Shown piece by piece: positions 381 to 38,163 of a stretch of 38,472 nucleotides of DNA; position 1 is the first letter of the stretch; every line of letters begins with the position of its first letter. The translations under genes were made by a program, and so were the position numbers. A model generated the notes under the pieces. That model was not told the DNA's origin and did no database searches. It saw only the letters and a program-made list of their open reading frames with translations. The DNA is from Saprospiraceae bacterium (GTDB taxonomy: Bacteria; Bacteroidota; Bacteroidia; Chitinophagales; Saprospiraceae). The stretch spans positions 1 through 38,472 of the forward strand of contig JAJCYI010000050.1 of assembly GCA_029263015.1 (NCBI GenBank), given 5' to 3'.

Positions 381-422
381 TAATCACTATTCACCGGTCA
401 CGAATCACTAAAGACTAATCAA
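381..422. repeat. Degenerate 7-base tandem array, 6 units
   Basis: Consecutive units are TAATCAC, TATTCAC, CGGTCAC, GAATCAC, TAAAGAC and TAATCAA. The stop codon of the minus-strand gene (415-417, TAG in its sense) lies inside the array, which forms the 3' boundary of that gene. Confidence 0.7.
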
Positions 423-1437
423 AAAAGTTATCGTATTGATTCCTATGTCCAACCCGTTCGGGCATTTTGATAGGTTCACTTAGGTCCAGGACATCAGTGT
501 CGTCGTTGGCTTGTTGGAGGATGGTTTTTTTCTCAGAACCAAGCAACAAAGACATACTTTCATTTTCCCACTTCTCCAGCATTTCAAGTCCTTCTTCTTC
601 GAAAACTCCATTTTGTAGGTCAATGGAATCCATGAAACTGGCAGACACCTCCATGAAGCGTTCCATCTCCCCGACCTTTTGGCTCACATCGTCAGCGATG
701 GCTTCCAATGCTTCATCGAACATGGCTTTTTTGTCTTTATCCCCCTGAATGATATTACGGGCATTCCGCATCGCCGAAGTAGAAGCCATAATAGCTTTAC
801 GCTCTTGTTCTTTGAGTTCTATCTGGTCTTTGATGTCTTCCATCATGATCTCCGAATTCTCGTACATCTTTTTCAAGACCCGGTACAAAACTTCCATTTT
901 TTTGTACAGCACATCGAGGCGCATGTTGGAATCCCTGAGTCGCCCAGCTTTTCTTGACTTCAGCACGACCATCGCTTTATTGTCCACTTCTTTGGCCTTG
1001 CTGGCAAGTTCCAAGTTGTTCCTGATTTCCTTCTTGTTCTTGTGGATGATCTCACCCAACTGGTGCATTTGCCCCCGCAGTTTATTGATCTGTTTGTTCA
1101 TGTTGCGCAGATTATCCTGCAAATCTTCGATATAGCTTTTCAAAATGCCAATAGGATCAATTCGGACAAAAAGCCCTGTAATCCAACGCATGACACTTTT
1201 GTAGCCATAACCGATCAATGCCCGCATTTTGGGATCCAACATTAAGTAGATCAACCCTGAAAGAGCAATCAACATAATGACCAGATAAACGGTGTTTTGA
1301 GCCAATATCAATAAAGGCCCGATCACGCTTGAAAGCAGAAAACCTCCACCAATGAGCAAGAGTATCAGGAACAATGCCCCTGTCACGCCTTCAGGGCGTT
1401 TCCAAAATGATTTGCTTTTTAAGTTGTTATTTGCCAT
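415..1437 (-). CDS. Membrane-anchored coiled-coil protein, function unknown
   Basis: The 340-residue product has two hydrophobic segments near the N-terminus (about residues 18-38 and 43-67). A long charged, largely helical region follows, with probable coiled coils at about 95-150 and 165-225, then an acidic tail. No enzymatic motif is visible. The shape suggests an inner-membrane protein with a long cytoplasmic coiled coil, loosely like PspA or YaaN partners, but I do not recognise the family. The start is the ATG at 1437, and a well-formed promoter lies upstream. The neighbouring minus-strand gene also encodes a coiled-coil protein, so the two may act together. The stop codon is embedded in a heptamer array. 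Confidence 0.8.
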   Translation of the reverse strand: MANNNLKSKSFWKRPEGVTGALFLILLLIGGGFLLSSVIGPLLILAQNTVYLVIMLIALSGLIYLMLDPKMRALIGYGYKSVMRWITGLFVRIDPIGILKSYIEDLQDNLRNMNKQINKLRGQMHQLGEIIHKNKKEIRNNLELASKAKEVDNKAMVVLKSRKAGRLRDSNMRLDVLYKKMEVLYRVLKKMYENSEIMMEDIKDQIELKEQERKAIMASTSAMRNARNIIQGDKDKKAMFDEALEAIADDVSQKVGEMERFMEVSASFMDSIDLQNGVFEEEGLEMLEKWENESMSLLLGSEKKTILQQANDDTDVLDLSEPIKMPERVGHRNQYDNFFD

Positions 1438-1501
1438 ATATGAACGGAAGGTGTTAGGTTGGTTTTTGGTTACTGCCTACTGCTCCATCTGGGTTAGGCT
1501 G

Positions 1502-1534
1502 CAAATTTAACTTAAAAGTTTCAGCACATTCAAA
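1502..1534 (-). promoter_or_regulatory. Bacteroidota-type promoter for the coiled-coil membrane protein
   Basis: Read on the minus strand, TTTG (1531-1534) is followed after 21 bases by TAAATTTG (1502-1509). This fits the Bacteroidota primary-sigma consensus TTTG-N19-21-TAnnTTTG. The predicted leader before the ATG at 1437 is about 55-60 bases. The gene therefore need not depend on read-through from the gene upstream. Confidence 0.6.
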
Positions 1535-1671
1535 AGGAATCCTAAACAGAAAAAACGAATTCCAAAACTTGCAACATTAACCAAATCACTGTTATTCAAA
1601 AACATGCTCCGACCAACCCTTTTTTATTTAAGATAAAACCATCATTTAAAGTATCATTGACCAACGGCCCC

Positions 1672-1776
1672 ACCATTCACCATTCACCATTCACCATTCA
1701 CCATTCACCATTCACCATTCACCATTAATCATTAATCATTAATCATTAATCACTCATCACTCATCACTCATCACTC
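1672..1776. repeat. Perfect 7-base tandem array, 15 units in three blocks
   Basis: Fifteen consecutive heptamers occur without a phase break: seven ACCATTC, one ACCATTA, three ATCATTA and four ATCACTC. Each block differs from its neighbour by one or a few bases, so the array changes sequence stepwise along its length. It ends at 1776, inside the stop codon (1775-1777) of the minus-strand gene that follows. In that gene's sense the units are GATGAGT, then GATTAAT, then GGTGAAT. The rest of the 1438-1774 gap holds a promoter (1502-1534) and otherwise nothing recognisable. Confidence 0.95.
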
Positions 1777-2449
1777 ATTTCAAATACTTCTTCATATTCT
1801 CTACGTCTTTCAAAATCTGTGCGACCAAAGTATTGTATGAGGCAATAAAATTATTCTTGGTGGTTTCCATATTGGTCGTGGCTTGACCGATTTCTTGCCG
1901 CAATTTCTCCATTTCTACTTGGTGTTTTTTCACTTCCCCCGTCAGTTGCTTTATTTGTTCCACCTTCTTTTGGGCAGCAGCTTCCAATTGGTTGATTCTG
2001 TTTTTCCGGCCTTCTACTTTGGCCGTTTCTTGGTTGGCCAGTGCTTGTTCAAACTTCGCTTCTTCCCCTTTCAGCACATCGAGGTAATGACTCGCCGTTT
2101 CAATTAATTTTGGTGGGGTGGCCCCCATTGCCTGGGCCATCGCAAAAGCAGATTGGTAACGCACCTTTTCCTCCATGGCCATTTTCTCCAGCGATTGAAG
2201 TGATTGCTTGTATTCCAGATAATCAACTCCGGGCAGGTTGTTTTTTTCTAAAGCACCAAAAAGTATATCCGTGAACTTGGCCGAAACCTTTCCTGGCTTC
2301 CCTGCAGTGGATTCTTTTACCATCGCCTTTTTAGGGTCGTTTGGATTAGACGAGGGCCTTGTCCCTTTGGATGCAGGCGGTTTGCCGGCACCTGGTTTTT
2401 CTTCTTCTATTACAAACAACGATTTTATACTTTTGAAATCGAAAGCCAT
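1775..2449 (-). CDS. Cytoplasmic coiled-coil protein, function unknown
   Basis: The 224-residue protein has no signal peptide or membrane segment. The first 20 residues (MAFDFKSIKSLFVIEEE) are followed by a low-complexity Pro/Ser/Lys linker (about 20-55). A helical region comes next, and a strong coiled coil rich in Gln, Lys and Glu (about 130-215). I do not recognise a named family. It lies upstream of, and in the same direction as, the membrane coiled-coil gene at 415-1437, with a 337-base gap containing its own promoter. A shared complex is plausible but not shown. The stop codon is supplied by the last unit of the adjacent heptamer array. Confidence 0.8.
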   Translation of the reverse strand: MAFDFKSIKSLFVIEEEKPGAGKPPASKGTRPSSNPNDPKKAMVKESTAGKPGKVSAKFTDILFGALEKNNLPGVDYLEYKQSLQSLEKMAMEEKVRYQSAFAMAQAMGATPPKLIETASHYLDVLKGEEAKFEQALANQETAKVEGRKNRINQLEAAAQKKVEQIKQLTGEVKKHQVEMEKLRQEIGQATTNMETTKNNFIASYNTLVAQILKDVENMKKYLK

Positions 2450-2453
2450 TTTT

Positions 2454-2481
2454 TAGTGATTGGTGAATAGTAGTTGGTGAC
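2454..2481. repeat. Degenerate 7-base array before the coiled-coil gene
   Basis: Units are TAGTGAT, TGGTGAA, TAGTAGT and TGGTGAC. In the sense of the minus-strand gene they read as the 5'-type (GTCACCA...ATCACTA) and end four bases before its ATG. Confidence 0.55.
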
Positions 2482-2551
2482 TTCGCAATGGTATTGAGCT
2501 TATTGAATATGATAAGACCTAACGCCTGAATTGCTTAATTACCGAATAATG

Positions 2552-2559
2552 CAAAGTTA
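2552..2559 (-). promoter_or_regulatory. -7 element for the coiled-coil gene at 1775-2449
   Basis: The minus strand reads TAACTTTG, a full match to TAnnTTTG. No convincing TTTG is found 19-21 bases further upstream. It forms a divergent pair with the plus-strand element at 2605-2612. Confidence 0.4.
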
Positions 2560-2604
2560 TGATAACAGTCAACATATTATAATGCGATTACCTATTGGAC
2601 TAAA

Positions 2605-2612
2605 TATATTTG
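2605..2612 (+). promoter_or_regulatory. -7 element for the glycosyltransferase operon
   Basis: TATATTTG matches TAnnTTTG. It lies about 50 bases before the ATG at 2662, a reasonable leader length. The -33 element is weak. Confidence 0.4.
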
Positions 2613-2631
2613 CGGGCTGGATTACTAATCT

Positions 2632-2659
2632 CTTATAACCAATCACAATTCTCTAATAA
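2632..2659. repeat. Degenerate 7-base array before the glycosyltransferase
   Basis: Units are CTTATAA, CCAATCA, CAATTCT and CTAATAA, ending two bases before the ATG. Its CCAATCA unit is the inverse of the GATTGGT junction near 2458-2464, across the divergent intergenic region. Confidence 0.5.
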
Positions 2660-2661
2660 AC

Positions 2662-3381
2662 ATGACCTTCGACGTTACCATTCCTGTGCTTAACGAAGAA
2701 CCTACTCTTGAAAAACAGGTGCTCATTTTACATGGTTTTTTGAAAAAGAATTTCCCCAAAAAAGGTCAATGGAAGATCATTATTGCAGACAATGGCTCAA
2801 CTGACCGAACTATTGAAATTGCCGAATCCATCGCAAAAAAACACCCAGAAGTGGTGCCCTTGACTGTTCCCAGAAAAGGAGTTGGACTGGCATTGAAACA
2901 TTCTTGGGGACAATCCACCGCCGATATGGTTGGTTACATGGATCTTGATTTAGCGACTGACCTATCGCATTTTTTAGAAGCATACAAAGCCATTGCAGAG
3001 CAAGATTATGACCTCGTGTATGCCACCCGTTTGCACCCAAAGTCACGGGTCTTCGGGCGTACCCTGAAGAGGGAAATCAGTTCCCGTGGCTTTAATTTTT
3101 TACTAAAAGCATACTTGGGCGTGGACTTCTCCGATGGCATGTGTGGTTTTAAATGGCTTAAGCGGGAGGTGTACCCTCAACTCCATGCCGCAGGAGCCGA
3201 TAACGATGGTTGGTTCTTCTCCACCGAATTGTTGACGGTCGCAGAATGGCAGGGGTTGAATATATATGAACTCCCTATAAAGTGGTCTGATGATGTAAGT
3301 AGCAGTCGGGTCGAGATCATTCCGTTGGCCAAAAAATACGTTTCTTCCATGATTGACCTGAAAAAAAGAAAACCCGCATAA
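2662..3381 (+). CDS. Family 2 glycosyltransferase (dolichyl-phosphate mannosyltransferase-like)
   Basis: The 239-residue soluble GT-A enzyme probably transfers a sugar from a nucleotide donor to a lipid or glycan acceptor at the inner membrane face. Motifs in order are IPVLNEE (7-13), the nucleotide-binding ADNGSTDRT (42-50, Asp43) and the DxD-type metal site DLD (94-96). A later acceptor-side segment contains DGMCGFKW. Length and order match the DPM1/GtrB-like branch, but no C-terminal membrane domain is present. The stop overlaps the next gene's ATG by one base (TAATG), so translation of the two is probably coupled. The substrate cannot be inferred. Confidence 0.9.
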   Translation: MTFDVTIPVLNEEPTLEKQVLILHGFLKKNFPKKGQWKIIIADNGSTDRTIEIAESIAKKHPEVVPLTVPRKGVGLALKHSWGQSTADMVGYMDLDLATDLSHFLEAYKAIAEQDYDLVYATRLHPKSRVFGRTLKREISSRGFNFLLKAYLGVDFSDGMCGFKWLKREVYPQLHAAGADNDGWFFSTELLTVAEWQGLNIYELPIKWSDDVSSSRVEIIPLAKKYVSSMIDLKKRKPA

Positions 3382-4334
3382 TGCCTGACCAACTTCCTCC
3401 ACCAAACCTGATTCTTGGCACCGCCCAATGGGGCTGGACCACCAACCGGCAAACAGCTTTTTCGCTTCTGGACGAATGGTACGCAAATGGCTTTCGGGAA
3501 GTGGATACTGCCACCAACTACCCCATTGATAAAAACCCAGACCATTTCCGTTCGGCTGAGACGATACTCCAGGAATGGGTCAAAGCAAACGGCATTACCG
3601 ACCTTCAAGTAATGATGAAAATTGGTAGCGTGAATAACCTCTTCACTCCCGAACACATCCTCACCAAGTCTTTCCTACTGATGATGCTCGACGAGTACCG
3701 GCACCTGTTCGGCTCCAATCTTGACACCATCTTGGTGCATTGGGACAATCGGGAATCAAAAGATGAAATCAGGGAATCTTTGGAGGCGCTCGAAACAGCA
3801 AAGGAAACCGGGTACAAAATTGGTTTATCTGGCATCCGCTACCCAGCGTTGTATGCCGAACTGAACGAGGAGTTCAATTTTGATTTCCGCATCCAGATCA
3901 AGCACAACGTCCTCCATTCCGACTATCAGCGATATGCGTCTTTTCATGGCAGCCAACGCTTTATCACCTATGGAATCAATGCGGGGGGCATCAAACTCGA
4001 CTCTTCGGAATATGCAGCAAACAGTACCCTTAAGGCACGTGGAGGTGACTTATCTACTGAACCTCCTATTGTGTTGAAAATCAAGGATTTGATCAAATCA
4101 ATTAATTTAAATAACGACCTCCCTCCCATCCATTCTTTTTTCCAAATCGGGATGATAAATGCATTTTACCATACCGATGTTCAGGGAATTTTGCTCGGTA
4201 CATCTAAAATAGAGCAGCTCAAACAAAGCACTGACTTTTATCAGATATTAAGAAAAGCGGACTATTCAGATGTTTACCGTTCTTTGCAGGAAATTATAAA
4301 TCAACAATCAACAATCATAAATTATAAATTATAA
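3381..4334 (+). CDS. Aldo/keto reductase family protein
   Basis: The 317-residue protein has the TIM-barrel aldo/keto reductase pattern. It opens with LILGTAQWGW and carries the full catalytic tetrad: Asp42, Tyr47, Lys80 and His120 (in VDTATNY, MMKIG and ILVHWDN). The predicted reaction is NADPH-dependent carbonyl reduction, probably of a sugar or sugar-like metabolite given the glycosyltransferase it is coupled to. The start is the ATG at 3381, overlapping the upstream stop. The last dozen residues (NQQSTIINYKL) are encoded by a heptamer array and are unlikely to belong to the fold. It overlaps the open frame of the next gene. Confidence 0.9.
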   Translation: MPDQLPPPNLILGTAQWGWTTNRQTAFSLLDEWYANGFREVDTATNYPIDKNPDHFRSAETILQEWVKANGITDLQVMMKIGSVNNLFTPEHILTKSFLLMMLDEYRHLFGSNLDTILVHWDNRESKDEIRESLEALETAKETGYKIGLSGIRYPALYAELNEEFNFDFRIQIKHNVLHSDYQRYASFHGSQRFITYGINAGGIKLDSSEYAANSTLKARGGDLSTEPPIVLKIKDLIKSINLNNDLPPIHSFFQIGMINAFYHTDVQGILLGTSKIEQLKQSTDFYQILRKADYSDVYRSLQEIINQQSTIINYKL

Positions 4335-4340
4335 ATTAAA
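4292..4340. repeat. 7-base array across the reductase/oxidoreductase junction
   Basis: Seven in-phase units occur: AATTATA, two AATCAAC, AATCATA, two AATTATA and AATTAAA. The array contains the stop codon of the reductase and covers the point where the start codon of the following FAD enzyme should be. Confidence 0.85.
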
Positions 4341-5460
4341 ATACGATTTCCTCATCATCGGTGGCGGCATATTTGGCTGTTACGCGGCGCTGTATTTGGC
4401 CGGCAAAGGCCATAGGGTTGCCTTAGTAGAGAAAGAAAAGGAGTTGTTCAAAAAGGCAAGCATCGTGAACCAGGCCCGCCTGCACGGTGGCTACCACTAT
4501 CCCCGAAGTGTGGCGACGGCCATCATGAGTGACGATAACAAGCAACGTTTCACAGAAGAGCATAAATCGTTTATCTTATTTGAATTTGAAAAATATTACG
4601 CGGTGGATAAATTCGGCAGTTTGACCGATGCCGCACAGTTCAAGCGTTTTTGTAGATTCATCGGGATAAAATGCGAACCGATTCACGGGCATCCGCTTTT
4701 TAATTACAACAGACTGGAAGCGCTTTACCTGACCACTGAATACACCTTCGACCCCGTGCTCATCGGTGAGTTTTACAAAGAAAAAATAAAAAAAGTATCG
4801 AACATCGACATTTTCTATTTTCATAAAATAAAAGAAGTAGAAAAGGGAAGCGGGAAGTGGAACGTAATCGTGCAAGACCTTGAGGATAAGTCACTTAAAT
4901 CAATCGAATGTGTCGGTGTCATCAATGCAACCTACTCCGGCAGCAATGCTGTCAACCGCCAATTTGGGGTGGACGACATTCAACTGATGCATGAAATTTC
5001 CGAGATCGCCTTCATCACTTCCCCTCAAGTTGACAACATCGGCCTCACCGTGATGGATGGCCAATTCGGCTCCATCATGCCTTACGGCAAATCCGGCCTG
5101 CTCTCACTTTCTTCCGTTGCTTATACCCATCATAAGGTGAGTTACGACAACCTGCCGCACTTCGATTGCCAGCTGGTCAACAGAGAATGTACGCCCGATT
5201 TTACGTCCATTTGTAATTTTTGCGAAGCAAAACCCCGCTCCAATTACCGTAAAATGATCGGTCAGATGAAACAATACTATTCTGACAAAGTGGCGTTAAA
5301 TTACCTCACTTCATATTACACCATCAAATCGAAACTCAAAGCCAATTTCATCGATGATGGCCGTCCCACCGAAATCAGCCAACTCCATAAAAACCCTGAT
5401 TATTATTGCATATTTGCGGGAAAGATCAATTCGATTTACGAAATAGAAAAAATAGTTTGA
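4321..5460 (+). CDS. FAD-dependent oxidoreductase (DAO-like), start codon abnormal
   Basis: The reading frame encodes an N-terminal Rossmann fold, KYDFLIIGGGIFGCYAALYL, with the dinucleotide-binding GxGxxG as GGGIFG. A VEKE segment typical of the second strand follows, then a long substrate domain. The frame is open from 4321, just after an in-frame TAA (4318-4320). It contains no ATG, GTG or TTG before the TTG at 4396, which would remove the whole FAD-binding motif. By homology the protein should begin at about 4336 (M-K-Y-D-F), where the sequence reads TTA inside a heptamer array. ATT at 4321 and ATA at 4324 are rare possible starts. The enzyme probably acts with the two genes upstream on a common sugar-type substrate. 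It may be poorly expressed or inactivated. Confidence 0.75.
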   Translation: MINYKLKYDFLIIGGGIFGCYAALYLAGKGHRVALVEKEKELFKKASIVNQARLHGGYHYPRSVATAIMSDDNKQRFTEEHKSFILFEFEKYYAVDKFGSLTDAAQFKRFCRFIGIKCEPIHGHPLFNYNRLEALYLTTEYTFDPVLIGEFYKEKIKKVSNIDIFYFHKIKEVEKGSGKWNVIVQDLEDKSLKSIECVGVINATYSGSNAVNRQFGVDDIQLMHEISEIAFITSPQVDNIGLTVMDGQFGSIMPYGKSGLLSLSSVAYTHHKVSYDNLPHFDCQLVNRECTPDFTSICNFCEAKPRSNYRKMIGQMKQYYSDKVALNYLTSYYTIKSKLKANFIDDGRPTEISQLHKNPDYYCIFAGKINSIYEIEKIV

Positions 5461-5462
5461 AA

Positions 5463-5539
5463 CAATTGAGGATTGAAAATGGAGAATTGAGAATTACTCA
5501 AAACATGATGCTCAATTTTTAATTTTTAATTTTTAATTC
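5463..5539. repeat. 7-base array filling the gap before arginine deiminase, 11 units
   Basis: Eleven in-phase heptamers run from just after the oxidoreductase stop to five bases before the next ATG. The first part is GAATTGA-like (CAATTGA, GGATTGA, AAATGGA, GAATTGA, GAATTAC). The second part is the inverse type (TCAAAAC, ATGATGC, TCAATTT, then TTAATTT units). The gap is thus an imperfect inverted repeat made of heptamers. Confidence 0.75.
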
Positions 5540-6795: not shown

Positions 6796-6914
6796 CCCCT
6801 CCCAGCCTCCCCAAAGGGGAGGGGTTGGGTGCAATAATTACGAGGCTTGACCATCAACGATTCTATTATTTTGTAACTAAATAAGCCCCTCCTTTGGAGG
6901 GGTTTGGGGAGGCT
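6796..6914. repeat. GC-rich inverted repeat pair (CCCCTCC element)
   Basis: Two short GC-rich elements face each other. Around 6804-6826 there is CTCCCC-AAA-GGGGAG, and around 6884-6913 there is CCCCTCC-TTT-GGAGGGG followed by TTTGGGGAGGCT. The shared AGCCTCCCCAAA is in opposite orientation in the two. Each can form a hairpin, and together they form a longer one. This type of element is, from memory, common between genes in Bacteroidota. Its second arm provides the purine-rich GGGGAGG ahead of the next gene's ATG. Confidence 0.65.
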
Positions 6915-7337
6915 ATGTACACGCACAAATTCCAAAAAAGAGTACGCTACGGTGAGACCGACCAAATGGGCTACCTGTATTACGGGCGCTATGCTGACCT
7001 GTATGAAATAGGCCGAGTCGAGATGCTGCGGTCATTGGGGATCACTTATCGGGAAATGGAAAAAGAGATGGGGATCATGTTGCCCGTAAAATCTTTGCAG
7101 ATGCGTTTTGTCCGGCCAGCCAATTACGATGAACTGCTGACCATCAAAACCACATTGCGGGAATTGCCTGACAGTGACATTACATTCCATGTTGAGGTTT
7201 TTAATGAAAAAAACAAATTGGTAAACGGCGGTTCTGTTCGATTGGTTTTTGTGGAAATGGAGACAAATAAAACGATTTTAGCACCTGATTTTCTGATCGA
7301 AAAACTGAAGCCATATTTTAAGGAAATTGGAAATTAG
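6915..7337 (+). CDS. Acyl-CoA thioesterase, YbgC/4-hydroxybenzoyl-CoA thioesterase family
   Basis: The 140-residue hotdog-fold enzyme is predicted to hydrolyse acyl-CoA thioesters in the cytoplasm. The N-terminal active-site block RYGETDQMGYLYYGRY contains the family's catalytic Asp16. The length is typical. The ATG at 6915 is preferred over an upstream TTG at 6894, because homologues begin just before the YxxTDxxG block and GGGGAGG sits at ribosome-binding distance. The last residues (EIGN) and the TAG stop are encoded by a GGAAATT/AGAAATT heptamer array. Confidence 0.9.
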   Translation: MYTHKFQKRVRYGETDQMGYLYYGRYADLYEIGRVEMLRSLGITYREMEKEMGIMLPVKSLQMRFVRPANYDELLTIKTTLRELPDSDITFHVEVFNEKNKLVNGGSVRLVFVEMETNKTILAPDFLIEKLKPYFKEIGN

Positions 7338-7349
7338 AAATTAGAAATT
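7322..7349. repeat. 7-base array at the thioesterase 3' end
   Basis: Two GGAAATT and two AGAAATT units. The TAG stop (7335-7337) bridges units two and three. Confidence 0.8.
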
Positions 7350-7395: not shown

Positions 7396-7448
7396 CCAAT
7401 TTCAAATTTCCTAATTTCAAATTTCTCAATTTCTCAATTTCTCAATTT
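7396..7448. repeat. 7/8-base array before the amidohydrolase
   Basis: Loose CAAATTT/CCTAATTT units lead into three perfect 8-base CTCAATTT units (7425-7448). The orientation is inverse to the AGAAATT array on the other side of the gap. Confidence 0.75.
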
Positions 7449-7466
7449 CAAAACAAAACTCAAACC

Positions 7467-8756
7467 ATGCGTAAAACGAACTACTTTTTCACTGCACTCC
7501 TCCTCATTCTATCCATTTCACTAAACGCCCAAATAAAATACTTGCATTGTGGCCAACTCATTGACTGCACGGACAATTCGGTAAAAAAAGAAATGACCGT
7601 TATAGTTGATGGGAAGATGATCGTGGAGGTGCAAAAAGGATATGCAGACGCCCCCAAAAGCGCCAGCACAATTGACCTAAAAAACAAAACCGTGATGCCC
7701 GGCTTAATGGACATGCACGTTCACATCGAGGGCGAAATCAGCCCGAAGCGCTATGAAGAAAATTTTCGGATGAATAACGCTGACAAAGCCTTGCGGGCCA
7801 CGCAATATGCTGAAAGAACCTTGATGGCAGGGTTCACGACAGTGCGTGACCTCGGCGGTTCTGGCGTGAATGTCTCCTTGCGGAATGCCATCAACAAGGG
7901 CTGGGTGAAAGGGCCACGCATTTTCACAGCGGAAAAAGCACTTGCAACTACCGGTGGCCATGCCGACCCAACTAATGGTGTCAGGGACGACCTGAAAGGC
8001 GATCCAGGGCCCAAAGAGGGAGTTGTCAACAGCAAGGAAGATGCTTGGAAAGCAGTTCGGCAGCGTTATAAAAATGGGGCGGACTGTATCAAGATCACCG
8101 CAACGGGAGGCGTTTTGAGTGTTGCCGCTTCTGGCCAAAACCCCCAATTCAATGCAGAAGAACTGGCCGAAATTATCAAAGCTGCCAATGACTATGGCTT
8201 CCACGTTGCTGCACATGCACATGGCAAAGAAGGCATGAAAAGGGCAGTAATTGCTGGTGTCACCAGCATTGAACATGGCACTTTCATGGACGAAGAAGTG
8301 ATGGAATTGATGAAAAAACATGGCACTTATTACGTACCCACGATTTCAGCAGGAAAGTCTGTTGCGGAGAAAGCAGCCGTGCCGGGTTATTTCCCAAAAG
8401 TGGTGGCGCTCAAAGCCGCAGCCATTGGCCCACAGATTCAGGATACTTTTGCGAAAGCATACAAAGGGGGGGTGAAAATCGCATTCGGCACCGACTCCGG
8501 CGTTTCCCCCCACGGTGACAATGCAAAAGAGTTTATCTATATGACCGAAGCGGGGATGCCCGTACTGGAAGCCATCCATTCTGCCACCGTGACCACCGCT
8601 GCTTTATTGAAAAAATCAGATGTGCTGGGCACCATCCAAAAAGGAAAATATGCCGACATCATCGCCGTGGACGACAACCCAGTTGACAATATTGAAACAA
8701 TGCTCCATGTGCGGTTCGTGATGAAAGAAGGGGAGGTTTTTAAGCATGAACAGTGA
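7467..8756 (+). CDS. Secreted metal-dependent amidohydrolase
   Basis: The 429-residue protein has an N-terminal signal peptide (cleavage near residue 21, LNA-Q), so the enzyme is exported. The binuclear amidohydrolase signature is complete: HVH (84-86), a carbamylatable lysine in CIKITATGG (Lys209), His250/His252 in AAHAH, His270 in IEHGT and Asp343 in GTDSG. The arrangement matches the imidazolonepropionase-like/Xaa-Pro dipeptidase group. A periplasmic peptidase or cyclic-amidase role is likely, but the substrate is not determined. The stop lies in a short AGTGAGT/AGCGAGT repeat. Confidence 0.9.
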
Positions 8757-14000: not shown

Positions 14001-16015
14001 TCCCTATTGAGAAGATAGATTTTATCAGGAATATCAAAAACCACAAGCTGGAAGGAGTGGCCAATTTAGATGTAAAAGCAACAAATATATTCAAGCTGGA
14101 GGGGTTGTCCACTTCTTTTAAATTAAATGACCTGACCGTTAATGGCGACAATTACGGCAACTTGAATTTGATCGGTAATGCCAAAAGCATCAAAGAACAG
14201 GTGAATGCTGATTTGTCAATTGTTGGAGATTCCACCAGGGTTTCCCTTAGAGGCTTCTTGAACCCGCCCGGTTTTACCGCCAGCGAAACCAATAAATTTG
14301 GCAAAAATTATTTTGATTTCGATGCTGACCTTGAAAAGATCCCGGTCAAAATAATAGAATATTTTGTCCCGGCGGTACTTAACCCCGTCGGTTCAATTAC
14401 CGGAAAAGACATTCATATATACGGACCGTTTTCTGCCCCAGAACTGGAAGGAAAGATACATGTCAATGATATTTCTTTTAAGTTAAAACCCCTTCAGACA
14501 ACCTATAGAGTTCCAGAAGGGGAAGTAATTCTCACCAGCAGGGCCGTTGATGCAACGGGCAATTTGGTGTATGACCGTTTCAACAATATAGCTGTTCTGA
14601 CTGGAGGCCTCACTCACGACCACCTCCGCAAGTTTGGCCTTGACCTGACGATAAACACCCAAGCCAACTCACCGTTTCTTTCACTTGAAACCACTGAGGA
14701 TGACAATGCCGTATTCTATGGTACTGCACTCGGAACAGGATTCGCCCGTTTTTCTGGCAGTTTCAAACAACCGAGCTTATATGTGAGCGGGAGATCTATG
14801 CCTGGCACACATATGTTCCTTCCACTTACCACTAGTACGGTAAGTCAGGACAACAGGTTTATCCATTTTACAGAAGAAGACCGGAAAAAAGAAAACGTGA
14901 TACTGGAAGAGAACCAGGCCCAGGAACTGAGGGGACTCAATATGGAATACGACCTTAACATCACGTCAGATGCTGTCATGGAAGTTATTTTTGACAAAGC
15001 ATGGGGGGATGTTTTGAGTGGTACTGGCGAAGGACAAGTGAAGGTCATCCTTGACCGCAATGGCCGTTTTGAAATGTTTGGTGATGTTTCCATTTCGAGG
15101 GGTGACTACCTGTTCACCTTGATGAATATTGGTTTGAACAAGCCATTTACCGTAGAGCCTGGAGGCACGGTCTCTTGGACGGGCGACCCCTATAATGCCG
15201 ACATCAATATTGATGCAGTTTACAAAGGGGTAAGTGCCCCGATATATAGTTTTATCCAAGAATACATAAACGTTACATCTTCAGAGACACAGGATCAGGC
15301 AAAGAACAGCACACCGGTCCTCCTGTATATGAACCTGACTGGGAAATTGCTGACGCCAGACATCAGGTTCAATATCGAATTCCCATCACTTGACAGCGAA
15401 CTGAGGGGATTTGCCGAAAACAAACTCCGTACCATAAAACGCGACGAAAATGAACTGAACAGGCAGGTATTTGGGCTTTTGGTTTTGGGTCAATTCCTTC
15501 CTTCTGGATCATCCATTCAAGCTGGTGATGTGGGGTTGAATACTTTGAGTGAAATGCTTTCCAACCAATTGTCCATGTATTTGACAGAATTTATTTCAGA
15601 ACTTTTCACTGGCAGCAGCATTATTAAAGGCATTGATCTCGATCTATCGTACAACCGCTACACAACAGATTTTAGTGATCCTGATGTCAATCCTAATAAT
15701 GAACTGAGGGGCAGGGTGAAAATCCTCGTTACTGATAGGGTGTCGTTCAATTACGGCACACAATACGATACAGGTGGGAGCATATATACCAATGGCAGCG
15801 GACAATGGGCCAATGAGTTTGAAGTTGAAACCATCCTGACCAAAGACCATCGATTGATATTGAACGTATATAATGTCTATGAGCCTGATCTGGCCGGAGG
15901 ACGCCGTAGTAAAATAGGGGGCAGAGTTACCTACCGCAAAGAATTTGATTCATTAAAAGAATTGGTCAGACAGCGTGATAAGAAAAAGAATGGAGAATTG
16001 GAGATTGAGAATTGA
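11096..16015 (+). CDS. TamB-like translocation/assembly module protein (DUF490 domain)
   Basis: The 1639-residue protein has a short charged N-terminus, one membrane anchor (about residues 30-49) and an AsmA-like start (VQNYAAQELTNFLSKELKTEVSIKRVKL). Very long beta-rich repeats follow, then a C-terminal TamB/DUF490 domain (about 1150-1600). Such proteins span the periplasm from the inner membrane and serve outer-membrane protein assembly or lipid transfer. Bacteroidota usually carry one of this size. The last residues (NGELEIEN) and the stop are encoded by a heptamer array, just after the natural-looking end RQRDKKK. No TamA-like or BamA gene is adjacent. Confidence 0.9.
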   Translation: MVKNSTENNGIPEKEPETANKRSGRYRWVKWSVYFLLTLFFLPILLFQIPFVQNYAAQELTNFLSKELKTEVSIKRVKLGLFYEIKMDEFYIEDLKGDTLSYIGLLDVDHSGLYHLMHQELEIESLTLNDGYFNISREAGKEENNFQFIVDYFSKPNNDEDIEQKPAKPFSLLLNQVILNNVHIYRQDSTKSEMIDLKIGRLEASIDLFDLSNQKIEMASMYIFGPEVILDQYERQIFPEPAIPADSDPDEISTENIPPPSQSFQFSIIDFNISGGSFNFSNRRKEPIKLTEEGVLNLNHLDVFSINFEFRDLEFTDELEFHGKVESSSLRERNGFVLQNLSANDATLTCEGLSLLGMELKTPQTTLGDTLIFKYSNYHDWESFPDDVKMDLKFSEEAYVSLKDIMTFAPKLENNLFFKENKNEEVNITGRFKGPVNRLDGRGLSINLANGVLIEGNFSTINLAVKDEQFLHLELDRMRTRMRTLRKLIPGFTPPENFDHLGKLDFSGNFDGFFVDFVANGKLKTDIGSGSMDVNMKLGEGRNEALYSGDLRLFDFDLGVWSGNSDFGNITARTTVKEGVGLSLNQAQAKVNGRIDSLNFKGYQYTNATLNGELKKNLFNGDLAIDDENIRFNFGGEVNFTDTIPAFDFKTDIRRLALKKLNLSKKDLQFSGKADLKLKGKTLSDVVGDAEVFDFLVIKNHTDTLNLESATVSSTLSETGEKHFKVNSNLGNVDINGRFDIEKIPNKFVEFLYENYPRLASKLKLPVNDIIPDTMQFFYTVELFELQNLVNFFDEKIKGFDETKITGSYDGYKSKLALEIEIPNWSYENISFDDVYVRTKLNHNEGSIQLGVIETQLNKDRKLSPISLIGSVYSDTLEFLIISSNFFKILDNININGVLSLDKDESWHVNFKPSDLVIMNQTWNIDTANYIRIGEGELETRNFQMYHQDQRIVLASFRDRGLELQVRNVPIEKIDFIRNIKNHKLEGVANLDVKATNIFKLEGLSTSFKLNDLTVNGDNYGNLNLIGNAKSIKEQVNADLSIVGDSTRVSLRGFLNPPGFTASETNKFGKNYFDFDADLEKIPVKIIEYFVPAVLNPVGSITGKDIHIYGPFSAPELEGKIHVNDISFKLKPLQTTYRVPEGEVILTSRAVDATGNLVYDRFNNIAVLTGGLTHDHLRKFGLDLTINTQANSPFLSLETTEDDNAVFYGTALGTGFARFSGSFKQPSLYVSGRSMPGTHMFLPLTTSTVSQDNRFIHFTEEDRKKENVILEENQAQELRGLNMEYDLNITSDAVMEVIFDKAWGDVLSGTGEGQVKVILDRNGRFEMFGDVSISRGDYLFTLMNIGLNKPFTVEPGGTVSWTGDPYNADINIDAVYKGVSAPIYSFIQEYINVTSSETQDQAKNSTPVLLYMNLTGKLLTPDIRFNIEFPSLDSELRGFAENKLRTIKRDENELNRQVFGLLVLGQFLPSGSSIQAGDVGLNTLSEMLSNQLSMYLTEFISELFTGSSIIKGIDLDLSYNRYTTDFSDPDVNPNNELRGRVKILVTDRVSFNYGTQYDTGGSIYTNGSGQWANEFEVETILTKDHRLILNVYNVYEPDLAGGRRSKIGGRVTYRKEFDSLKELVRQRDKKKNGELEIEN

Positions 16016-16029
16016 GAATTTGGGTTTGG
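15988..16029. repeat. 7-base array at the TamB-like gene 3' end
   Basis: Six in-phase units: GAATGGA, GAATTGG, AGATTGA, GAATTGA, GAATTTG and GGTTTGG. The TGA stop (16013-16015) is inside it. Inverse-type units at 16118-16152 can pair with it to form a long hairpin after the gene. Confidence 0.85.
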
Positions 16030-16117
16030 ATTTGCCCAAAAAATTAGCAAGTCTAAATCGTTTGAAAATTTCTTTGATCTAAAATGTAAATCCTGTTGAA
16101 TTCCCAGTTGCTGGTTT

Positions 16118-16152
16118 CTCAATTCTCAATTCTTAATTTTCCATTCTTAATT
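16118..16152. repeat. 7-base array before the AAA+ ATPase
   Basis: Two CTCAATT, then CTTAATT, TTCCATT and CTTAATT. The first units are the exact inverse of the AATTGAG phase of the array at 15988-16029. Confidence 0.85.
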
Positions 16153-16204
16153 TATTCCCAAAGTTTGCACCTTTGCGTAAACTAAATTTTCACACAGCAT
16201 TTAC

Positions 16205-21510: not shown

Positions 21511-21584
21511 GGCCTCGTAGCTCAATTGGATAGAGCGTTTGACTACGGATCAGAAGGTTAGGGGTTCGACTCCTCTCGGGGTCA
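21511..21584 (+). tRNA. tRNA-Arg (anticodon ACG)
   Basis: The 74-base cloverleaf folds fully. The acceptor GGCCTCG pairs with CGGGGTC (with wobble pairs), and A is the discriminator base. The D stem is GCTC/GAGC. The anticodon stem TTTGA/TCAGA encloses loop CTACGGA, giving anticodon ACG. The variable loop is five bases, and the T stem AGGGG/CCTCT encloses TTCGACT. CCA is not encoded. A34 is expected to be deaminated to inosine to read CGU, CGC and CGA. It precedes the ribosomal protein genes and may share their transcript. Confidence 0.95.
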
Positions 21585-21590: not shown

Positions 21591-21674
21591 TTTGAGTTGA
21601 CGAGTTTTGAATTATTGAGTTTTGAGTAAGATTTTTGATTACTCAAAACTCAAAACTCAAAACTCAAAACTAAC
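21591..21674. repeat. 7-base array between tRNA-Arg and rpmB, 12 units, self-inverted
   Basis: Twelve heptamers stay in phase from seven bases after the tRNA to six bases before the rpmB ATG. The first half is TTTGAGT/TTATTGA/GTTTTGA type and the second half is TACTCAA followed by three AACTCAA. A perfect 15-base inverted repeat (21615-21629 with 21639-21653, 9-base loop) forms a strong hairpin, which could separate tRNA from mRNA or act as a terminator or attenuator. Confidence 0.85.
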
Positions 21675-21680: not shown

Positions 21681-21929
21681 ATGTCTAGAGTTTGTGAATT
21701 GACAGGAAAACGTCCGATTACTGGAAACAAAGTATCGCACTCAAACAGGAAAACCAAGCGCCGCTTTTTGCCTAATTTATTCAAGAAGCGTTTCTTCGTT
21801 CCTGAAACTGGTAAATGGATTACGTTGAAAATTTCTTCAACAGCCCTTCGCTCCATTGATCGCTTGGGCATTTATGCTTACATCAAAAAGCAACAATCCA
21901 AAGGTAAAGCCTTGGATATTAAACTTTAA
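21681..21929 (+). CDS. rpmB: 50S ribosomal protein L28
   Basis: The 82-residue basic protein carries the L28 signature: SRVCELTGKRPITGNKVSHSNRKTKRRFLPNL and ISSTALRSIDRLGI. It is a component of the large ribosomal subunit and stands first in the phylum-typical order L28, L33, DUF4295, FtsY. The gap to rpmG is only 21 bases. Confidence 0.97.
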   Translation: MSRVCELTGKRPITGNKVSHSNRKTKRRFLPNLFKKRFFVPETGKWITLKISSTALRSIDRLGIYAYIKKQQSKGKALDIKL

Positions 21930-22398: not shown

Positions 22399-22443
22399 AA
22401 GGCTTTTCTTAAATTAGGTTTAAGGAAAGCCTTTGTTATTTTT
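22399..22443 (+). terminator. Rho-independent terminator of the L28-L33-DUF4295 operon
   Basis: A 15-base-pair stem (22399-22413 with 22419-22433, one G-T pair) with loop TTAGG is followed by TGTTATTTTT. The T-rich tail overlaps the -7 element of ftsY. Confidence 0.8.
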
Positions 22444-22444
22444 G
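22437..22444 (+). promoter_or_regulatory. -7 element for ftsY
   Basis: TATTTTTG matches TAnnTTTG and lies 52 bases before the ftsY ATG. It is built into the T-tract of the preceding terminator. A -33 TTTG is not obvious. Confidence 0.45.
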
Positions 22445-22495
22445 CCCGATTTTGAATCAAGTTGCAAACCACATCATACCAACAGCCAAAGAAAC

Positions 22496-23443
22496 ATGAG
22501 TTTTTTCAATAAATTTTTTACCAAAAAAAAGGAAGAAGACCTCGATAAAGGGCTCGAAAAAACCAAAACTGGTTTTTTGGACAAATTGACCAAAGCCGTC
22601 GCTGGGAAATCCACCATTGATGTGGAAGTGCTCGATGAACTGGAATCAATCCTGATAGCTTCCGATGTTGGGTTGGATACCACCATCAAGATCATTGAAC
22701 AAATTGAAGAAAGGGTAAAACGGGACAAGTATGTGAATATCAGCGAGTTGGACAGAATCATGCGGGACGAGATCGTGCAGTTGCTGGAAGAAAACAATAC
22801 CGAAGACCATGAAGACTTCACCTTACCTGCTGACAAGAAACCTTATATCCTTCTGGTTGTTGGCGTAAACGGGGTGGGGAAAACCACCACGATTGGGAAA
22901 CTCGCCTACCAGTTCAAACAAAAGGGCAAAAAAGTCGTGATAGGTGCAGGTGACACATTCCGCGCCGCTGCTGTAGATCAATTGAAAATATGGGCGGAGC
23001 GGGTTGGCTGTGAATTTTACGCAAAAGGTATGAACACAGATCCCGCCGCCGTAGCTTATGAAACCGTTGATTTTGCCATTCGGAACGACTGCGATGTGGC
23101 CATCATTGACACTGCTGGCCGCCTCCACACCAAAATCAACCTCATGAAGGAGCTGACCAAGATAAAACGCTCTGCCAGCAAACGCCTGGATGGCACTCCA
23201 CACGACGTGCTCCTAATATTAGATGCCACCACTGGCCAAAATGCCATCGAACAAGCCAAACATTTCACCGCTGCAACGGAGGTTTCCTGCCTGGCCCTGA
23301 CCAAACTGGATGGTACAGCCAAAGGCGGCGTTGCCATCGGCATTTCTGACCAGTTCAAAATACCGATCAAATATATCGGCATTGGAGAAGGCATGGAACA
23401 ACTGCAAGTGTTCAACAAAAAAGCATTTGTCGAATCCCTTTTT

Positions 23444-23452
<9 letters not shown>
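22496..23452 (+). CDS. ftsY: Signal recognition particle receptor FtsY
   Basis: The 318-residue SRP GTPase docks ribosome-nascent chain complexes at the inner membrane. The N domain covers about residues 30-100. The G domain has G1 GVNGVGKTT (123-131), the family-specific AGDTFRAAAVDQL (151-163), DTAGR (205-209) and TKLD (269-272). The acidic N-terminal A domain is very short, as usual in this phylum. The start is the ATG at 22496 (MSFFNKFF). An upstream TTG would add an unrelated 21 residues. Its last codons and stop merge into a perfect heptamer array reaching the next gene. Confidence 0.96.
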
Positions 23453-23520
<68 letters not shown>

Positions 23521-33228: not shown

Positions 33229-33417
33229 GTTCAAGGCATTCCAATTTACCTTGCACCGATTTGCCGATACACCAAAAAAAGAACGGCAATAGTAAGGTCT
33301 CGTTGCTTTTTTCGCAAACTTTTTGCAACAGAGAGTTAGAATAGCGTTAAAACAATGTCCCGTAACCTACGTTAGTTTATTTTGATTTCCTGTTTTTGAT
33401 AAATAACAACCATTACA

Positions 33418-34707: not shown

Positions 34708-34710
34708 GGA

Positions 34711-34766
34711 TTGATGAATTATGAGTGATGATTTATATAAATCATCACTCATAAATTATAAATCAA
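34711..34766. repeat. Palindromic 7-base array between convergent genes
   Basis: Eight in-phase units: TTGATGA, ATTATGA, GTGATGA, TTTATAT, AAATCAT, CACTCAT, AAATTAT and AAATCAA. The right half is the inverse of the left. The stop of the minus-strand gene (34763-34765) lies inside it. Confidence 0.9.
34719..34754. terminator. 36-base perfect palindrome, probable bidirectional terminator
   Basis: Two 18-base arms (34719-34736 and 34737-34754) are exactly complementary with no spacer. Pairing continues imperfectly for five more bases. The position between two convergent stops fits transcription termination in both directions. Confidence 0.65.
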
Positions 34767-35227
34767 AATTCTTTCACTGGCAATTTCTCATGGATTTCAG
34801 TCACCTTCATCAATGCTGCTGATCCGTACCAAGGGTGCAGTTCCATCACCAAACTACCTGCCTGAATAGCAGGGTCAGACTTGGTTAATTTTTTTGCTTC
34901 CTCAATTGTTTTTACATTAAAAATATAAATACCACGGATATCTCCGCTATCCAAAAAAGGGCCAGCAAGTACCAGCGTTCCTTCTTCTGCCATTCGGCCA
35001 ATATTCTCGAGATGGGCTTTTTGTAATTCGGCAGCTTCAGCAGGTGAGCGGTCACGGTTGGGGCCACGTTTTAAAAAAGCCATGACATATTGTTTCATGC
35101 CATATTCGTCGGCATCTAATTCTTGTGCAAGCGCCGTGTCCCTTTCCATGGTTTCATTGTTTTGAGAAAATAATAAAACTGGGAACAACAAAATCAAAAT
35201 AAATGATTGAAAGTATTTCATATTCAT
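34763..35227 (-). CDS. Exported YCII-domain protein
   Basis: The 154-residue protein has a signal peptide (MKYFQSFILILLFPVLLFSQ). The YCII-related alpha/beta-barrel domain covers about residues 40-140. It contains MAFLKRGPNRDRS, HLENIGRMAEEGTLVLAGPFLDSGDIRGIYIF, an EEAKKLTKSDPAIQAG segment and HPWYGS near the end. The order matches YciI-like proteins, of unknown catalytic role and usually cytoplasmic, so export is notable. The start is ATG at 35227 or 35221 (MNMKYF). The stop is supplied by the palindromic array. Confidence 0.85.
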   Translation of the reverse strand: MNMKYFQSFILILLFPVLLFSQNNETMERDTALAQELDADEYGMKQYVMAFLKRGPNRDRSPAEAAELQKAHLENIGRMAEEGTLVLAGPFLDSGDIRGIYIFNVKTIEEAKKLTKSDPAIQAGSLVMELHPWYGSAALMKVTEIHEKLPVKEF

Positions 35228-35262
35228 TATTTATTTAGAATAAATTAGTTAGTTAAAGTTGA

Positions 35263-35325
35263 ACCACATAAGACATAAAAGGTAACATAAGTAAATCTCT
35301 TTTGTGGCTTTTGTGGCTTTTGTGG
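35263..35325. repeat. 9-base tandem array, 7 units, self-inverted
   Basis: Units are ACCACATAA, GACATAAAA, GGTAACATA and AGTAAATCT, then three CTTTTGTGG. The first half (ACCACATAA.. AAAAG) is the loose inverse of the second (CTTTTGTGG), so the array can fold back. ACCACAAAAG occurs again near 36692 on the other side of the flippase gene. Confidence 0.8.
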
Positions 35326-35345
35326 TTAAATAAAATCGTTCCAAT

Positions 35346-36650: not shown

Positions 36651-36711
36651 TGGTGGTGATATTTACAAGAATAATGTTCCGCTTTATTTGAACCACAAAA
36701 GGCAGGACATT

Positions 36712-36734
36712 CTCAATTTTTAATTTTTAATTTA
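36712..36734. repeat. 7-base array at the saccharopine dehydrogenase 3' end
   Basis: CAATTTT, TAATTTT and TAATTTA after CT. It shares a 22-base exact stretch with the array before arcA (starting at 5511). The minus-strand stop (36727-36729) is inside. Confidence 0.75.
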
Positions 36735-38076
36735 AATCCTCCTCCCGCTCATTAAACTTAATCCCGTAATCCTCCAATTCTTTAAGCACAGGTTCATAAG
36801 CTTCTTTGCTAACAGGAATATTGACACCTCTCGAAGTTATTTTGCCAGTCATTACAAGTTTTGCAAATATGCCCAAAGGCAGGCCCACCGTTTGGGCAAT
36901 GGCTGTGTCATCGGCATTGTTTCCGTATAACAACATGCTGGAATAGCGGCGTTTTTTCTTTCCATTTAATTCAAAATCAAACTCGTGTTGCATGATAATG
37001 AGATCACGGTCATTTTGTTCGAGTTGCCATTTTTTCAATAATAACTCTTCCAAAATAAGAGCTGGTGTTGCTTTGGCCAAGGTGATTTTCTTTTTGCTGA
37101 AAAGTCCGAGCCAATCCAATTTTTTCATCACTGGCGAAAACGGGCGCTCACCCAAAAGCTCCCCTACCCTATCTTTTACCGAAAGCCCTGGCTTATTATC
37201 AACGCTAAGATATGCTTCCATCAACTCGTGATAACTTAATTTTTCAGAATCCATGATCGGGTATGACCCATCTGTAAGTCCAATCTTGATGAGGGCGTTC
37301 CAGGCATCACAAAATCCTCGGTATCGAATAGTGCCCCGGTAAAGGTTCGGAATATCCCCAAGTCCATATGCTTCGCGGTAAAGCAGGGATTCCCTGTTTG
37401 CATAAACCTCAAACGGCTCATCAAATCCAGGGATGTTGACCAATTTGTATTCCTTGAAAAGGCGGTTGTAGGGAATGTATTTGAACTTATCATCCTCCAG
37501 GTATTGGGCAGTGCCCTGTCCAGCCTTCACTACGTTACGGGGATTCCAGGTAAACTTGTACCTCCAAGGGTTTTTCTCTAAATATTCTGGCGCTACCAAT
37601 CCTCCCGCATTGGACCGGAAAGCCATGAGCTTCCCGCCTATCCCTTTTATTTCGTCAATGGTTTTCATGGCCGACATGTGGTCAATGCCAGGGTCGAGGC
37701 CCAATTCGCCCATAAAAATCAGTTCTTTGTGGCGGAAATCATCGCTGAGTTTATAAATATCCTTGGAGACATAAGACGCAGTGATTAGGTGTTTGTTAAG
37801 CTGGATGCAATCAGTTGCCACATCAATGTGGAGATGGGCAGGGAGCAATGAAATAACAAGATCTGCTCGGTTGATTAAGTCGCGGCGGTCGTTGACTTTC
37901 ATCACATCAAGCCACACCGCAAGGCCATTCGGATGGCCATTTACCTTTTTGGTTGCTACCTGTGGGTCGGCATCAGCCACAGTCACATGCCAGTTGTGGC
38001 TTTTTGCTTGATCTAGTACATAGCGAATAAGTGCAGAAGAAGATCGGCCTGCGCCGAGTATTAGAATGTTGTTCAT
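36727..38076 (-). CDS. Saccharopine dehydrogenase-like oxidoreductase (LYS9 type)
   Basis: The 449-residue enzyme begins with a Rossmann fold (ILILGAGRSSSALIRYVLDQA, 4-24) and an acidic strand-2 end (ADADP). LGLDPGIDHMSA (about 144-155) and the catalytic-domain segment RYRGFCDAWNALIKIGL follow, as in glutamate-forming saccharopine reductase/LYS9. The expected reaction interconverts saccharopine with aminoadipate semialdehyde and glutamate using NAD(P), in lysine breakdown. The partner lysine-ketoglutarate reductase is not in the window, so a related carboxynorspermidine-type role is not excluded. The start is the ATG at 38076, preceded by a long CCATTAA-type array. Confidence 0.88.
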   Translation of the reverse strand: MNNILILGAGRSSSALIRYVLDQAKSHNWHVTVADADPQVATKKVNGHPNGLAVWLDVMKVNDRRDLINRADLVISLLPAHLHIDVATDCIQLNKHLITASYVSKDIYKLSDDFRHKELIFMGELGLDPGIDHMSAMKTIDEIKGIGGKLMAFRSNAGGLVAPEYLEKNPWRYKFTWNPRNVVKAGQGTAQYLEDDKFKYIPYNRLFKEYKLVNIPGFDEPFEVYANRESLLYREAYGLGDIPNLYRGTIRYRGFCDAWNALIKIGLTDGSYPIMDSEKLSYHELMEAYLSVDNKPGLSVKDRVGELLGERPFSPVMKKLDWLGLFSKKKITLAKATPALILEELLLKKWQLEQNDRDLIIMQHEFDFELNGKKKRRYSSMLLYGNNADDTAIAQTVGLPLGIFAKLVMTGKITSRGVNIPVSKEAYEPVLKELEDYGIKFNEREEDLN

Positions 38077-38093
38077 TGACGGATAGGTTTCGT

Positions 38094-38163
38094 TTTAATG
38101 GTTAATGGTTAATGGTTAATGGTTAATGGTTAATGGTTAATGGTTAATGGTTAATGGTTAATG
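38094..38163. repeat. 7-base tandem array, 10 units
   Basis: One TTTAATG and nine perfect GTTAATG units upstream of the minus-strand dehydrogenase. In that gene's sense they read CATTAAC. The array ends 18 bases before the ATG. Confidence 0.95.

Follow-up and report, generated by a model that had tools for sequence, protein, structure and literature searches.

Seven-base tandem arrays of free spelling and common polarity at gene boundaries of a Saprospiraceae bacterium

Tandem arrays of seven-base units have been described between the genes of several bacterial groups. In Xanthomonas and Nostoc, the accessible text of PMC4692102 describes GGGAATC and GGGGA(C/T)T heptamers that are G-rich on the coding strand after stop codons and on the non-coding strand before start codons, that may overlap the stop codon, and that in two related species mostly occupy the gaps of the same gene pairs while varying strongly in length and sequence. 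Each of those genomes has one family of quadruplex-capable G-tract words, with four units preferred. The same text relates that heptamers were recognised in 2007 as over-represented in bacterial genomes, their role being still open, cites the hypothesis that seven is the length of DNA held in the polymerase active site, and cites the short tandemly repeated repetitive (STRR) heptanucleotides of cyanobacteria (Calothrix), of which there are three words. According to the accessible part of PMC4679880, TAACTGA direct repeats occur in Beggiatoaceae, Cyanobacteria and five Bacteroidetes and reach 43 copies in some Bacteroidetes and Cyanobacteria; in the main genome under study this single fixed word is found mostly immediately before starts, and mirror pairing is not described in that part. 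Here we analyze the heptamer arrays at gene boundaries of a 38,472-nucleotide stretch (the window) from a Saprospiraceae bacterium, which forms contig C50 of a genome of 6.95 Mb in 245 contigs, together with further loci of that genome and of its relatives (handles beginning with G denote genomes, C contigs and L loci).

The pattern is real, it is present in the genus and it is polarised; its direction is already known for fixed words elsewhere, and the new part is that the words are free, partly mirrored and replaced whole. The arrays have the seven-base intergenic unit and the outward G polarity in common with the Xanthomonas/Nostoc heptamers (PMC4692102, as far as accessible), the placement of intergenic heptamer arrays near gene ends, Bacteroidetes included, with the TAACTGA repeats (PMC4679880, likewise), and tandem heptamers in the genome with STRR (as cited in PMC4692102). 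Unlike in Xanthomonas/Nostoc, many words are used, few contain GGG, and the arms within one spacer tend to have a common word and to swap it together. Among 87 arrays at 3' edges (51 from the own genome, 36 from relatives) and 46 at 5' edges, GGG was found in the outward tandem of 13 and 6 units, respectively, and judged on this GGG content the units do not resemble quadruplex G-tracts; TAACTGA was the word of 1 of the 133 edge units (at a 3' edge of L216, from a relative). The original prediction had held that the units are not copies of one repeat. Words do mostly differ between spacers, and no single word family characterizes the genome, but some words recur and spelling is not wholly free: the CACCATT triple has 58 exact overlapping matches in the genome and, spelled backwards, 0. 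Unlike the repetitive extragenic palindromic (REP) elements and their associated tyrosine transposases (RAYT), the arrays have no conserved dispersed palindromic consensus, since words differ by spacer. Free-word, mirrored arrays are undescribed in the accessible parts of PMC9879509, PMC4060949, PMC6749651 and PMC4263839, and among the first listings obtained from the open-access literature we found no account of the polarity rule in Bacteroidota/Saprospirales or of free-word mirrored heptamers more widely. The prediction that Bacteroidota lack such an account stands to that extent, with the amendment that the same polarity has been published for the fixed Xanthomonas/Nostoc heptamers (PMC4692102, accessible text).

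Arrays were located with Tandem Repeats Finder (TRF), using a score of 30 for the listing of the window and of at least 40 for period counts, and genes were called with a simple caller of our own, in broad agreement with the open reading frame (ORF) list of the window. The larger own-genome sample comprised 1.31 Mb in 85 loci including the window, picked irrespective of repeats with the exception of L238 (C245), which holds CACCATT sites already listed; smaller samples covered 0.40 Mb and 1.05 Mb, the latter with slightly different gene calls. The 16 of 20 loci picked via CACCATT matches entered only the 'all' sets of early counts. Arrays without most of their length in a spacer were excluded.

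In the 273 kb of intergenic DNA of the larger sample we found 171 arrays, with periods 5, 6, 7, 8, 9 and 10 represented 0, 1, 53, 18, 5 and 2 times and periods 14, 15 and 21 represented 25, 11 and 10 times, and the 944 kb of coding DNA gave 83 arrays, 8 of them with period 7. When the spacers of the 0.40 Mb sample were shuffled five times, 43 arrays resulted altogether, none with period 7 or 8. The predicted excess of period 7 over its neighbours was thus borne out, whereas a mechanism that 'counts 7' is supported just in part because periods 8, 14, 15 and 21 are raised as well, with 7 the strongest. Within the window, 8 of 13 arrays in 7.2 kb of intergenic DNA had period 7, compared to 1 of 5 arrays in the 30.7 kb that are coding, and five Markov shuffles of the intergenic part gave six arrays altogether, none of period 7. 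At the lower score the window had 43 TRF rows, 20 with period 7, of which 15 lay at gene boundaries, as predicted for a dozen or more of them, and 5 within genes. Arrays were present in 97 of 704 own-genome spacers of at least 20 nt; the window was richer, with arrays in 7 of its 20 spacers of at least 40 nt versus 88 of 654 in other own-genome loci. All gene orientations were represented in the 1.05 Mb sample (arrays in 27/176 ++, 28/177 --, 13/89 convergent and 13/106 divergent spacers). Relatives sampled for period and polarity were G001, G002, G005, G006 with G012, G008, G009 and G013, the last being array-poor (1 of 34 sampled spacers); some relatives' stretches, including L209, contain the ftsY spacer already known before sampling.

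The arrays showed a clear polarity, which was assessed on arrays with four or more G+C that lay neither near the spacer middle nor near both edges. Left-edge arrays of the 1.31 Mb sample were G-rich in 22, C-rich in 6 and mixed in 11 cases, and right-edge arrays in 3, 22 and 11 cases (Fisher p = 1.3e-6). The corresponding G:C:mixed ratios were 20:6:9 (left) and 0:19:8 (right) in the 1.05 Mb sample and, summed by hand, 15:1:13 and 1:15:6 in the relatives, where the same polarity therefore recurs, as the original prediction had proposed to check; singly it was significant in G009 alone (p = 0.03), the other sets being too small. Sorted by gene end, 3' edges of the 1.05 Mb sample had arrays of outward-G, outward-C and mixed type in 23, 4 and 13 cases, and 5' edges in 16, 2 and 4. 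The predicted inverted orientation at the two gene ends is non-random, but exceptions exist (9 of the 53 own-genome edge arrays with a clear lean, besides 22 mixed ones) and the rule is better put per spacer: polarity is a property of the spacer, at both edges of which the strand that runs away from the nearest gene is rich in G and poor in C.

Orthologous spacers often retained this layout under changing words. We compared the spacer that separates the FAD-dependent oxidoreductase gene from the arginine deiminase gene in the own genome and ten relatives, three more genomes of the genus set being without a usable pair. Classed by eye, 9 of 11 species carried G-words downstream of the stop, C-words upstream of the start, or both (G003 with a clear right but a degenerate left edge), and arrays were absent in G002 and G012. 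The words, for example GAATTGA, AATGGTT, GAGTTAT, GGTGATT, GTCATTG and GAATTGAAA, mostly differ by species, with some in common between G005 and G010. Pairing of a species' own arms averaged 27.4 versus 13.5 for cross-species combinations (p = 6.7e-5), and own arms beat all ten swaps in 6 of 11 species, one of which, G012, is array-free in this spacer. Both arms of the orthologous spacer tend to change together between species. The spacer 3' of ftsY, readable in 13 of 14 genomes and also judged by eye, had tandem arrays in 7 (G000, G002, G008-G012), in the relatives with words other than the window's, a hairpin without clear tandem words in G004 and G005, and neither in G003, G006, G007 and G013. 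The comparison of orthologous gaps, set beforehand as a check, thus showed a layout often kept and words mostly changed.

Pairing within a spacer was scored by comparing its left half with the reverse complement of its right half, and scores of at least 30 were taken as clearly paired. This held for 23 of 153 array spacers, compared to 38 of 2526 combinations of arms from different spacers in one genome, and to none of the 29 pairs of arms on either side of one gene. Pairing was confined to short spacers, with 15/38 at 40-119 nt, 8/40 at 120-249 nt, 0/51 at 250-599 nt and no array spacer above 250 nt; spacers longer than about 600 nt (24 of the 153) were excluded from counts by length and orientation.

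The 3'-edge arrays are closely tied to gene ends: 32 of 87 overlap the coding end, and 70 of 87 begin inside it or at most 10 nt away. A stop codon was found in the outward unit of 65 of the 87, versus 55.6 expected (sd 3.6). Genes with a 3' array avoid TAA stops, ending in TGA, TAG and TAA in 51, 24 and 12 cases, compared to 588, 205 and 488 among all 1281 genes (p = 2.8e-6).

Spacers with the same layout and different words look like the product of a fast mutational process held in check at gene ends. The explanation that we favour, tentatively and at a little short of an even chance, is that the arrays are spacer-filling heptamer satellites kept young by mutation, with slippage seeded at gene ends, mirroring by hairpin template switching, and a selection filter. 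We infer these mutational and selective steps from results that are direct, namely the period, the polarity, the spacer as unit, the length-dependent pairing, the change of ortholog words with matching arms and the stop bias. First, replication slippage would duplicate a word of about 7-8 bases, often one including or abutting the stop codon, and words at gene ends would be duplicated and tolerated because copies just outside the reading frame do little harm. As expected, the successive blocks of related words at 1671-1778 fit repeated local expansion. Second, in a short spacer able to fold, hairpin template switching (quasipalindrome correction) would mirror the word onto the other edge, so that both arms would have the same outward word and change together. 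Such template switching is an established process in Escherichia coli and would make imperfect inverted-repeat arms alike; as the accessible part of PMC7202029 presents it, it is a mutation process and not a repeat family, and heptamer arrays fall outside its subject. Third, selection would give the direction: 3' edges would keep words whose stop codon has a G and 5' edges would keep G-free leaders, with no start codon and little structure, and both filters would leave the same outward G-rich, C-poor strand. Turnover of words would then make orthologous spacers differ more in spelling than in layout.

Several observations weigh against this explanation. With so few array spacers clearly paired, mirroring is not general, and since array-free spacers pair too (28 of 363), part of the pairing is unrelated to arrays. 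In the oxidoreductase/deiminase spacer, the two arms of G009 differ in their words (score 13, fold z +1.1), and in G000 and G005 the arm of another species matches better than their own. Slippage alone leaves the preference for 7-8 over 5-6 unexplained. At 5' edges a stop codon in the outward word was not clearly enriched (37 of 46 versus 34.4 expected, sd 2.3), the recurrence of downstream stops was weak (0.086 at 7 and 0.082 at 8 in 732 own-genome genes, the maximum elsewhere being 0.090, at 18), and the stop-codon bias rests on our own gene calls, in which an overlapping array can itself set the called stop.

Next in probability, though in our view unlikely, is that the paired arms are selected RNA hairpins, either terminators or stabilisers of 3' ends, acting in both directions in convergent spacers, whose words drift as the structure stays. 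Intrinsic terminators are hairpins after stop codons and are bidirectional in convergent spacers. All four named window spacers that were compared as RNA with shuffles fold across the spacer (z -4.8 to -6.7); the orthologous oxidoreductase/deiminase spacer folds at z <= -3.2 in 8 of 11 species (mononucleotide shuffles), and at 40-119 nt convergent spacers pair more (18/72) than co-directional ones (20/181). Unlike in terminators, however, the arms consist of tandem 7-8-mers and words vary by species. T and A are about equal at outward 3' edges (0.307 and 0.313), which shows no A-tract or U-tract bias overall, although single spacers are U-rich. Mismatches in the paired arms of co-directional spacers (78 of 572, with or without arrays) were G.U in 103 and A.C in 101 cases in the sense direction, and no signal of RNA-level compensation was obtained at thresholds of 24, 28 or 34, which favours matching at the level of DNA. 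Several relatives have a separate conserved stem with an A run beside the array hairpin 3' of ftsY, and 130 of the 153 array spacers are without clear pairing.

Constraints at the edges might also suffice on their own, with leaders avoiding G, stop-linked words needing G, slippage surviving one way only and the mirroring due to ordinary terminators. Array-free spacers do lean likewise, with an outward G of 0.209 and C of 0.138 at 441 5' edges and, slightly, 0.195 and 0.173 at 353 3' edges. The array words, however, lean much more (G 0.27 and C 0.11 at 3' edges, G 0.25 and C 0.08 at 5' edges), and both the matching within a spacer and the joint change between species exceed what edge composition alone gives; we regard this account as improbable. 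Still more doubtful is a dedicated writer, a telomerase-like enzyme extending the outward 3' strands on both sides of a spacer break with the same 7-8-base word. It would yield outward G-rich strands, equal arm words, the spacer as unit, a near-fixed length and one-step replacement of the word. No enzyme for it was found among the candidates checked (Y1-type transposases and SbcD, with polymerases and reverse transcriptases outside the search), neither of which correlates with the presence of arrays in the genus. That templated terminal extension caps genes with telomere-like G-rich 7-8-base words, erased and rewritten spacer by spacer, is a long shot. An assembly artefact is most improbable: two long arrays (G000 C115 and C242) do run to a contig end, but the same spacers carry arrays in many separate assemblies and arrays at contig ends suggest that long ones are under-represented, not invented.

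Other candidates were tried and rejected. That convergent spacers pair more than divergent ones, taken as an orientation effect, is largely due to spacer length, short divergent spacers being too few to judge. That palindromes are tolerated through loss of SbcCD does not fit, as SbcD passed the cut-off in the own genome as well as in 11 of 14 genomes, and array-bearing G002 was without a match. A Y1 transposase as mover showed no clear relation to arrays: Y1_Tnp matches were found in 12 of 14 genomes (8 in G000), and G003 and G010, which had none (89% and 78% complete), both carry arrays in the oxidoreductase/deiminase spacer. As for a preferred universal word, (GGTGAAT)3 occurred in 28 of 396 genomes of the order and backward in 4, yet (GAGTTAT)3 occurred in 8 of 198 and backward in 11, the backward counts being made by eye, so there is no general rule. 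A guard of stop codons in all frames was likewise dropped as a function, given the modest 3' excess and none clear at 5' edges, and was retained as a seed effect.

The arrays of the window are collected in the table below. The eleven units predicted at 23444-23520 were recovered by TRF, shifted by one base, but two other supposedly unbroken arrays, at 5463-5539 and 21591-21674, each proved to be two arrays with a gap, the left one of the second pair containing indels. The array on the 7396 side of its pair exists with a 15-base unit instead of a plain seven, and at 381-420 no TRF row was obtained even at a score of 30, a loose 7-base rhythm being visible at most. Of six spacers said to be bounded by inverted arrays, five fold as long cross-spacer hairpins, and 2450-2661 folds less cleanly. 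When the arms of these six were swapped, own arms beat all five swaps in the spacers starting at 2450, 7338, 21585 and 34708, and failed to do so at 5461 and 16016.

Table. Arrays and array-like words of the window, with the evidence for each
Positions	Strand	Feature	Evidence and remarks
1671..1778	-	3' array of minus-strand gene 1775-2449	TRF rows 1671-1726, 1723-1752 and 1749-1778, all 100% period 7; outward order by sequence inspection: about 4 GATGAGT into the stop codon, about 4 GATTAAT, then eight GGTGAAT
2450..2490	+	Weak left-edge words GTGATTGGTGAATAG of divergent spacer	Sequence inspection, no TRF row; partner words near 2632-2661; own pairing score of spacer 2450-2661 18 vs 12-14 for five swapped spacers
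4291..4342	+	AAATTAT-type array	TRF period 7/14; Pfam; codons; encodes the C-terminus of aldo/keto reductase 3381-4334; also overlaps the FAD-dependent oxidoreductase start
5464..5495	+	Left-edge G-words AATTGAG following the FAD-dependent oxidoreductase stop	TRF; RNA fold with 5514-5538, z -5.1
5514..5538	-	Right-edge AATTTTT words, preceded by CTCAATT, upstream of the arginine deiminase start	TRF 100% period 7; Pfam ADI
7323..7349	+	Left-edge GAAATTA array overlapping the end of gene 6894-7337	TRF; RNA fold with 7397-7452, z -4.8
7397..7452	-	Right-edge array of 7+8 units CAATTTCAAATTTCT ahead of gene 7467-8756	TRF periods 8 and 15
15987..16020	+	Left-edge AGAATTG array overlapping the end of gene 11096-16015	TRF; long stem with 16116-16153
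16116..16153	-	TTCTCAA/TTCTTAA array, 51 nt before gene 16205-17686	TRF
21602..21671	.	GAGTTTT left (21602-21627) and ACTCAAA right (21641-21671)	TRF; ORF list; Rfam tRNA; RNA z -6.7; between tRNA (21511-21584) and 82-aa ORF 21681-21929
23443..23519	+	11 AAAGTAA-type units	TRF 11.0 copies; Pfam SRP54, Thymidylate_kin; from the stop codon of the ftsY-like gene (22433-23452), filling the spacer to the thymidylate kinase-like gene (23523)
34708..34762	.	Convergent spacer, one near-perfect heptamer hairpin GAGTGAT/ATCACTC	Folds, z -6.7; TRF row just 34737-34769
36715..36733	-	Short AATTTTT array, right edge, 3' end of minus-strand gene 36727-38076	TRF 2.7 copies
38095..38164	+	Ten left-edge TTAATGG units, upstream of the saccharopine dehydrogenase-like gene on the minus strand	TRF 100%, 10.0 copies; Pfam

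Some further observations concern the sequences around the arrays. The 16-base phrase GTAAAAAGGCAAAAGT, directly or as its reverse complement, is common to three own-genome spacers (L035:16388-16489, L165:9614-9685 and L186:5402-5522), which hints at copying between spacers. A different inverted repeat, longer and built around the core ACCTGTCAGGT, recurs in the spacers L042:16233-16348, L193:12039-12146 and L042:4402-4557 and, from its sequence, looks like a dispersed palindromic element. The window spacer 6796-6915 contains the inverted, non-heptameric phrases CCCCTCC...AAGGGGAGGGG and CCCCTCCTTTGGAGGGG. A scan with the FtsY protein returned 50 loci, the best being mostly metagenome records assigned to Saprospiraceae, Lewinella, Phaeodactylibacter or just Bacteroidetes; in the ftsY 3' spacer of relatives (L054, L055, L057-L059 and L061), a near-identical stem lies beside an A run and adjoins the array hairpin, and is perhaps the terminator of the facing gene. 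At 95-478 of L242 (G008) the oxidoreductase/deiminase spacer contains a 127-aa frame with GGTGATT words on its left and AATCACC on its right, and its product may resemble the four-helix-bundle proteins of 23S rRNA insertions. Finally, in the FAD-dependent oxidoreductase of the window (4321-5460, +) and of L249-L258, an in-frame ATC (9) or ATT (2) precedes the conserved Tyr-Asp of the nucleotide-binding fold in 11 of 11 same-genus genomes, at a distance of 3-7 codons that is exactly 6 in 8 of the 11. The frame is open upstream without ATG, GTG or TTG in 6 of the 11 genomes, the other 5 having one further upstream, and the gene may start at ATC or ATT.

In these genomes the word is free while the period, the direction and, in part, the mirror pairing persist, and a single orthologous spacer in 11 species offers many spellings of one layout. 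This separates the process that writes the arrays from any protein that might bind a fixed word, and makes it testable. Where arrays extend into gene ends they can provide stop codons and protein tails, as in the aldo/keto reductase of the window, which ends in array-coded residues.

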